From Microbacterium maritypicum (GTDB lineage Bacteria > Actinomycetota > Actinomycetes > Actinomycetales > Microbacteriaceae): a stretch of 64,000 nt of DNA. Made by a program: the position numbers and the translations under genes. Of the stretch, positions 60,998 through 63,304 are shown in pieces (position 1 is the first letter of the stretch; every line of letters begins with the position of its first letter). A model generated the notes under the pieces. The model was not told the origin of the DNA. It saw nothing but the letters and a program-made list of their open reading frames with translations, and did no database searches. The stretch covers positions 372,001 to 436,000 of the forward strand of contig NZ_CP168030.1 of assembly GCF_041529975.1 (NCBI RefSeq), read 5' to 3'.

Positions 60998-63304
60998 TCA
61001 GAAGCCCGGGATGAGGCTGACGACGAGGTCGATGAGCTTGATGCCGATGAACGGGGCGATCACGCCGCCGAGTCCGTAGATGAGCAGGTTGCGCTGCAGG
61101 ATCTGCGAGGCGCTCGCCGGGCGGTACTTCACTCCGCGCAGGGCGAGCGGGATCAGGAACACGATCACGATCGCGTTGAAGATGATCGCGCTGGTCACGG
61201 CGGATGCCGGCGAGTGCAGCTGCATGATGTTGAGCGCGGCGAGTCCGGGGAAGACGCCCATGAACATCGCCGGGATGATCGCGAAGTACTTCGCCACGTC
61301 GTTCGCGAGCGAGAACGTGGTGAGGGCTCCGCGGGTGATGAGCAGCTGCTTGCCGATGCGCACGATGTCGATCAGCTTGGTCGGGTCGGAGTCGAGGTCG
61401 ACCATGTTGCCGGCCTCCTTCGCAGCCGAGGTGCCGGTGTTCATGGCCACGCCGACGTCGGCCTGCGCGAGGGCGGGGGCATCGTTCGTGCCGTCGCCGG
61501 TCATGGCGACCAGGCGCCCGCCCTCCTGCTCGCGGCGGATGAGGGCGAGCTTGTCCTCGGGCGTCGCCTCGGCGAGGAAGTCATCGACCCCGGCCTCGGC
61601 GGCGATGGCCTTCGCGGTCAGCGGGTTGTCGCCCGTGATCATCACCGTGCGGATGCCCATGCTGCGCAGCTCGTCGAACCGCTCGCGCAGGCCGTCCTTG
61701 ACGATGTCCTTGAGGTGCACGACGCCGAGGATGCGGCCCTCCGTCACCTGTTCGTCGGACACCTGTCGGGAGTTCGCACGGATGTCGGACCGTTCCGCGG
61801 CGATTCCTCCGACATCCGTCCGTTCTTCCGACAAGTGGGCAGGTGCGGATGCCGGGGCAGACGCGGATGCCGGGGCCGGGGCGGATGCCGGGGCAGACGC
61901 CGGGGTCCGCACGGCGACGACGAGGGGGGTCCCTCCACTTTCGGCGACGGTGTCGGTGCGGGTGGTGAGCTCCGCGTCCTCGGCGTCGAGCCCGAGCCAC
62001 GCCCGCACCGCGGAACCTGCGCCCTTGCGGATCTGCGTGCCGTCGGCGAGGTCGAGTCCCGACATGCGGGTCTGCGCGGTGAACGGCACGACGACGGCAT
62101 CCTCCGGAGCGGTGACGCGGATGCCGCGGGCGGCGGCGAGCTCGACGATCGAGGCACCCTCCGGCGTGGGGTCTGCGAGCGACGACAGGGCCGCGACCCG
62201 CAGCAGTTCGCCGGCGTCGATGCCCGGGAGGGGCAGGACCTCGTGCGCACGGCGGTTGCCGTAGGTGATGGTGCCGGTCTTGTCGAGCAGCAGCGTGGTG
62301 ACGTCGCCCGCGGCCTCGACAGCGCGCCCCGACATGGCCAGCACGTTGCGCTGCACGAGCCGGTCCATCCCGGCGATGCCGATGGCCGAGAGCAGTGCGC
62401 CGATGGTGGTCGGGATCAGGCAGACGAGCAGGGCGATGAGCACCGGGATGCTGACGGGCGATGCCGCGTAGGAGGCGATCGGGTTCAGGGCGAGCACCAC
62501 GACCACGAAGATGATCGACAGGCTGGCGAGCAGGATGTTCAGGGCGATCTCGTTCGGGGTGCGCTGGCGGCTGGCGCCTTCGACGAGGGCGATCATCCGG
62601 TCGACGAACGTCTCACCGGGCTTCGAGGTGATGCGCACCACGATCCGGTCGGACAGCACGCGGGTGCCGCCGGTGACGGCGCTGCGGTCGCCGCCCGACT
62701 CGCGGATCACCGGGGCGCTCTCGCCCGTGATGGCCGACTCGTCGACGGTCGCGATGCCCGCGATGATGTCGCCGTCGCCGGGGATCAGCTCGCCGGCGGT
62801 GACGATCACGACGTCGTCGCGCTGCAGTTCGGCGGACGAGACCTCCAGGGTCTCGGCACGTTCTGCGGCGGCATCCGAAGCCGCGTCGTATCCGACCACC
62901 CTGCGGGCCATCGTGCTGGTGCGGGTCTTGCGCAGGCTCGCGGCCTGGGCCTTGCCACGGCCTTCGGCGACGGACTCGGCGACGTTCGCGAACAGCACCG
63001 TCAGCCAGAGCCACACCGCGATGCCCCAGGTGAACGGCGCGGGGACCGGGGTGCCGCCCGAGTCGGCGGGTCCGCCGAGGAACGGTTCGGCGATCGCCAG
63101 CACGGTCGCGAACGCGGCGCCCACCCAGACCAGCAGCATCACGGGGTTGCGGACGAGGGCTGCGGGGTTCAGCTTGCGCAGGGCGCCGGGCAGGGCCTCG
63201 ACGAGCTGTGACCAGCCGAAGGAACGCGTCGGCTGCGCGGGGGCGGATGCCGCAGCATCCTGCTGTTCAGAAGGGGATTCGGAAGGCGTGGTGATGAGAG
63301 TCAT
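60998..63304 (-). CDS. kdpB: KdpB, K+-transporting P-type ATPase subunit, with in-frame repeat insertion
   Basis: A 768-residue P-type ATPase that drives K+ uptake through KdpA. The phosphorylated Asp is D341 in '[13 protein letters not shown]'. '[14 protein letters not shown]' is the actuator loop, '[19 protein letters not shown]' and '[22 protein letters not shown]' complete the P domain. Family length is near 680-700. The excess lies at residues 467-522, in a nucleotide-domain loop after 'GGTPLVVAV' and before '[15 protein letters not shown]': an Ala/Pro/Ser run (467-490), then residues 491-514, encoded exactly by a family A palindromic repeat (61764-61833). The frame and all catalytic motifs are intact, so the protein is probably active. 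Two bases after kdpA, 25 before kdpC. Confidence 0.95.
61764..61833. repeat. 70-bp palindromic repeat, family A copy 3, inside kdpB
   Basis: TGTCGGGA (from 61764) pairs with TCCGACA (to 61833; one base short of the outer arm), inner ACGGATGTCGGA pairs with TCCGACATCCGT. It keeps the family layout but lies within kdpB and is translated on the minus strand as residues 491-514. It adjoins an Ala-Pro-Ser stretch encoded by GCGGATGCCGGGGC-type simple repeats. Confidence 0.85.

Follow-up and report, generated by a model that had tools for sequence, protein, structure and literature searches.

How does a dispersed palindromic repeat come to lie in frame inside a conserved protein gene? The question is raised by kdpB, a potassium-pump gene, in Microbacterium maritypicum, which we analysed within a window of 64,000 nucleotides (contig NZ_CP168030.1, positions 372,001 to 436,000). 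We consider it probable, at about 0.84, that the insert in KdpB and similar inserts in CydD come from resident palindromes that were copied into coding regions and tolerated at turns and linkers.

Palindromic repeat DNA in kdpB and in the M. maritypicum genome

An earlier, preliminary description of the window had claimed that a palindromic repeat is inserted in frame in kdpB. We confirmed that repeat DNA lies within the gene; the reading frame is open, and KdpB still reaches 971 bits with TIGR01497, for which the cut-off is 528. The coordinates and residues given there for the extra stretch agree with ours (Table 1; residues are counted from the ATG at 63304), as does the assignment of residues 491-514 to 61764-61833, though the whole unit is slightly longer at both ends. 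The loop has 60 residues compared with 9 in the nearest empty allele and is thus 51 residues longer. The insert is presumably translated in the cell and may be neutral. The adjoining Ala-Pro-Ser tract has 21 residues in the window, but reads ASASASA in the related protein P0003 and GTSAPV in P0004. Judged from these sequences, the differences in tract length are compatible with slippage, which had been proposed for this run of simple repeats.

Table 1. Location of kdpB, the parts of its insert and the intergenic family A copies in the window
Feature	Position	Strand	Basis or remark
kdpB, 768 codons	60998..63304	-	TIGR01497 971 bits and translation
Extra stretch, KdpB residues 467-522	61739..61906	-	4-10 loop residues in most relatives read
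Family A four-box palindrome in kdpB	61760..61837	-	78 nt = 26 codons, residues 490-515
TP and Ala-Pro-Ser tract, residues 467-489	61838..61906	-	GCATCCGC-type simple repeats; length varies among close relatives
Residues 516-522 (SDEQVTE), downstream side of insert	61739..61759	-	
Family A copy, between genes	19211..19287	+	covariance model
Family A copy, between genes	20464..20540	+	covariance model; identical in same-species genome G211
Family A copy, between genes	56174..56250	+	covariance model; identical in same-species genome G211

The repeat, here called family A, has four boxes at a spacing of 19 bp, of which two are direct and two are inverted, with the simplified consensus CACCTGTCGGGAG-n6-CGGATGTCGGA-loop-TCCGACATCCG-n6-CTCCCGACAGGTG. 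In some copies TGCAGG and CCTGCA replace TGTCGG and CCGACA. The outer boxes form terminal inverted repeats, as is required of a MITE. A BLAST search of the 3.9-Mb single-contig genome with the 70-mer returned 16 match rows, the query's own place among them; the best non-self place has E = 6e-12 with 81% over 68 bases. A covariance model trained on ten copies, the kdpB copy among them, gave 42 rows at E < 0.01, corresponding to 21 places on both strands, and 2 more rows at E > 0.3; this search scored 150 of 8204 first-look candidates, and 21 places may be too low a number. The 78-nt unit in kdpB therefore has 20 other copies in its genome by this possibly low count, well above chance, and the model recovered all three intergenic copies that the preliminary description had listed for the window.

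By ORF and GC3 tests, 17 of the 21 places lie between genes and two lie inside genes, namely kdpB and cydD. Two copies overlapping long ORFs (L022 and L028) were considered as intragenic and set aside, being upstream of likely starts. At 10 of the 21 places an ORF end is 20-70 nt away. Seventeen copies fall within 650 kb around contig position 0 (binomial p about 2e-10, for a region picked after the positions had been seen). One intergenic spacer (window 19184-19321; L307:3519-3662) holds a family A palindrome in the window, whereas in the same-species genome G211 it is occupied by different sequence with no BLAST alignment to the window; it is therefore not a clean empty site, and insertion borders are unreadable there. 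Rfam had no match at gathering score in the window, and the element had no match at E 0.01 in either a plasmid or a phage collection. A further dispersed inverted repeat of the window, about 80-88 nt long and based on GCCGAGTGCACGGC, lies at 7940-8044 and 17464-17551.

The KdpB loop and the CydD linker in related genomes

We searched 247 genomes of the genus with a conserved piece of kdpB. Every genome gave some match at E <= 0.001, and matches weaker than E about 1e-28 were taken as other P-type ATPases. The resulting 147 kdpB loci comprise 140 of at least 149 listed places outside the M. maritypicum genome, the window itself and six further loci; two of the 147 (L041 and L241) share a loop sequence and sit on equally long contigs, and they may be duplicates of one record. 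Loop boundaries were set by alignment, and motif classes tolerate 1-2 mismatches. A short loop of 4-10 residues was found at 86 of 147 loci, counting as short two unsure loops that have no left flank (L153, at a contig end, and L238, where the reading frame starts inside the gene). DNA of dispersed palindromic families occupies the loop at 37 loci: the four-box repeat at 9 (5 A and 4 of a variant, A2), family B (CCTTCGACARGCTCAGG) at 23 and family C (CGTTTCGTCTCG..GCTCGCTCAACGACC) at 5. The other 24 loops, of 12-50 residues, fall outside these classes. A set of 121 KdpB proteins, 118 of which were parsed at the loop, gave the same picture, and the named relatives that came first among the matches listed belong to Microbacterium. 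The loop of L237 (genome G074) is a tandem LESAV-type repeat, a plain tandem expansion.

The insertion is thus missing in most relatives read, as the preliminary description had predicted, and the same loop is not common to all close relatives: the same-species genome G211 (L127) has a plain 9-residue loop, TTPGAEGRV. The expectation of a precisely bounded insertion did not hold, as end-points and the low-complexity tract vary among relatives, and no target-site duplication was readable between filled and empty kdpB. Nor is the loop reserved for family A; other strains hold unrelated palindromic families there, which suggests that repeat DNA repeatedly becomes protein at this site. In four proteins (P0098, P0106, P0113 and P0121) a second KdpB loop, after TSTMAR and before the actuator strands, has 26 residues of GSQDGWVAELVDAS type and looks like translated family B.

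The solved KdpB structure 6hra, presumably that of the E. coli protein, aligns with the query as far as residue 464 and resumes at residue 522, with one residue of its own between the aligned stretches, and the insert therefore replaces a tight turn. In an AlphaFold model of KdpB, a check that had been proposed for the loop, residues 470-520 have pLDDT below 50 and lie between strands 459-466 and 523-535; the model is moderate overall (mean pLDDT 70.7, pTM 0.54). The loop is a hairpin turn, and the insert is disordered in the model.

The CydD linker is a second site filled by palindromes in the manner of kdpB. Of 28 loci from the 29 genomes selected for family counts (see below), 21 could be read at this linker and 7 were missed by the search pattern; G187 gave no match. 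Classified by eye, the 21 linkers comprised A or A-like (7), C (3), two palindromes designated D (GTTCACAATTCAGCA..TGCTGAATCGTGCAC; 5) and E (TTCGAAGCGCGCA..; 2), and no class (4). Among 121 CydD proteins, 109 were parsed, of which 82 carry an A-like peptide, 22 a D-like peptide (3 by eye) and 5 a C-like peptide.

Because the KdpB and CydD sites both lie at domain boundaries, such inserts might instead be kept for an mRNA hairpin that pauses ribosomes there, aids folding or attenuates expression. The kdpB copy does fold strongly (with short flanks, -46.5 kcal/mol compared with -30.1 for shuffles, z = -5.1), as does the cydD linker of G196 (z = -5.8). However, codon-shuffled loops encoding the same peptide fold about equally well: class means of z ranged from -0.98 to -0.02 over 37 loops with lengths of 17-90 residues, compared with -0.69 for 37 control stretches from the same genes, and codon shuffling of these loops thus gave no sign of selection on an mRNA hairpin. 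Most kdpB loops read also lack an insert, and we consider this explanation quite improbable.

Resident families and repeated gain

If resident palindromes are copied into coding DNA, the inserted family would usually be one with many copies in the same genome. We compared 29 genomes of our own choosing, representing all 9 A/A2 loci of the 147, all 5 C, 6 of the 23 B and 9 empty loci; counts include the insert itself and are model rows for A and exact motif counts for B and C. Family B numbered 38-68 in genomes with a B insert and 0-68 elsewhere (medians 56 and 1), family C 8-65 and 0-22 (medians 22 and 0), and family A 1-47 and 0-42 rows (medians 20 and 7.5). One-sided Mann-Whitney tests gave 3e-4 for B, 1e-4 for C and 0.02 for A over these chosen genomes, with the insert counted and kinship uncorrected. 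The reversed-pattern control was 0 in 29 of 29 genomes.

The inserted family thus tends to be abundant in its host genome, with exceptions. G021 has an A-like palindrome in its kdpB loop yet one weak A-model row genome-wide, and in G005, G115, G022 and G125 another family is at least as numerous as the inserted one. With the A2 insert of G125 as DNA query against five genomes, there were 6 rows in G125 itself (self included), 2 in G135, 1 in G126, 1 in G187, which is its own kdpB copy, and 0 in the M. maritypicum genome.

Genome-specific motif sets could also be expected if the motifs were functional DNA sites, uptake-signal-like or protein-binding, that are enriched in the genome and that loops merely permit in coding DNA. 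The copies near ORF ends and their crowding around position 0 would fit such a role. Uptake signals, though, occur in thousand-fold counts per genome, far above the tens of copies found here, and the change in kdpB is added DNA rather than point mutation of an existing loop. We regard this as very improbable, and copying of resident palindromes remains our preferred explanation.

To trace the history of the loop, we removed it from 146 kdpB genes, built a FastTree tree of them and applied equal-cost parsimony. The root state was an empty loop, and 45 changes were required: 5 A, 2 A2, 16 B and 4 C gains (about 27 gains of repeat families), 17 gains of other loops and one reversion to the empty state. 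With shuffled labels, 57.3 changes were needed on average, with a minimum of 51 in 50 shuffles. At the kdpB loop, family B is found in either orientation and in more than one frame, being read at one loop as PSTGSGT, LRQAQGP and, from the opposite strand, EPVEG, so that many B inserts are separate insertions. All five A inserts share one common reading frame. Stop codons and hydropathy were considered as reasons for this single frame and rejected, since the three frames are much alike in this regard (stops in 2, 4 and 5 of 16 copies).

Some of the gains may instead reflect recombination that spread existing alleles. Outside the loop, P0005, which was taken as the KdpB of G211 with its empty loop, differs from the window KdpB by 2 residues over the region compared, whereas the insert-bearing P0002 and P0004 are farther away (13 and 12 residues); in addition, the bases left of the window insert are closer to L134 than to L127. 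Recombination of alleles could therefore lower the count of about 27.

A single ancestral insert per site, lost in many lineages and elsewhere diverged beyond recognition, would account for the common frame of the A inserts and for A-derived peptides in 82 of 109 parsed CydD proteins. It is highly improbable given that the A, B and C motifs differ in sequence, that B lies in different frames and strands, that the root is empty and that inserts track resident families. That the loop arose by low-complexity slippage, with an accidental palindrome match, is next to negligible: an Ala-Pro-Ser tract does adjoin the element, but the entire 78-nt unit matches 20 other places.

Mechanism and likeness to known systems

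Under the copying of resident palindromes, Microbacterium palindromes, most of them intergenic, would occasionally be copied into coding DNA, as a rare event. Survivors would be in-frame insertions at a turn or linker that tolerates added residues, and these would be translated into a disordered segment. The acceptors, the KdpB hairpin turn (nucleotide-binding/phosphorylation domains) and the CydD linker between membrane domain and ATPase, would be filled repeatedly. After insertion, slippage may extend flanking simple repeats while the copy drifts to an ordinary linker peptide; we infer both this drift and the manner in which the DNA is copied. For the copying step we detected no transposase, and no target-site duplication was readable. 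In REPIN/RAYT systems, as in the Microbacterium repeats, short repeats are paired in inverted orientation and vary from genome to genome. Mobilisation of family A by a RAYT was rejected because the Y1 transposase/RAYT family (PF01797) has 0 matches in the M. maritypicum genome; matches were present in 5 of 14 control genomes.

Coding palindromes are best known from Rickettsia, whose palindromic elements (RPEs) were reportedly described by Ogata et al. in 2000 and 2002; the coding palindromes described here belong to a genus whose genomes measure 2-5 Mb. According to reviews, RPEs are dispersed palindromes of about 100-150 bp found between genes and in frame in conserved genes (PMC10969869, PMC2229807). 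The Microbacterium repeats, which are likewise dispersed and in frame in conserved genes (kdpB and cydD), come from another phylum and have a shorter unit, by a comparison of descriptions. The preliminary description had held that the kdpB insert mirrors RPEs, and in appearance it does, but unlike RPEs, a single Microbacterium loop has taken up several families that are unrelated to one another, depending on the strain.

Intragenic GTAG/CGTC REPs lie in ORFs of known proteins, and in recB of two Xanthomonas species different REPs occupy about one site (PMC3733652). The Microbacterium repeats are similar in both respects; they differ in their unit, that of the REPs being 20-40 bp with a tetranucleotide tag, and in the roughly 27 gains at a single loop. 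Neither 'actinobacter' nor 'microbacter' occurs in the main text of PMC3733652, and titles and abstract beginnings in the open-licence PMC literature held no report of palindromic repeats in Microbacterium or in actinobacterial frames, of these motifs, or of an insertion in Microbacterium KdpB. In-frame palindromes are already known from Rickettsia and REP-rich genomes; what is new is one loop repeatedly filled by different resident families. Empty and filled alleles in one species, at sites where unrelated repeats have landed again and again, are natural replicates. With them one can study the conversion of non-coding DNA into protein, the sites that tolerate this and the agent that moves repeats in genomes where no RAYT is found. 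Such alleles are also a warning that loops of these proteins may be misaligned or misannotated.

It is possible, at somewhat less than even odds, that in these Actinobacteria an active process writes resident palindromes into coding DNA proteome-wide, with turns and linkers in KdpB, CydD, PutA, a helicase and the DnaK tail turning over as interchangeable repeat cassettes. When 20 family B loci were sampled on one contig of G029, 6 lay well inside ORFs of known families, where B is in frame: DnaK (in the tail, beyond its Hsp70 domain), PutA, an HhH-GPD repair protein, kynureninase, an Lhr-like helicase and a sensor histidine kinase. These six conserved genes also count in favour of our preferred explanation. 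Three further B loci, left out of the 6, are at the start of stop-to-stop ORFs.
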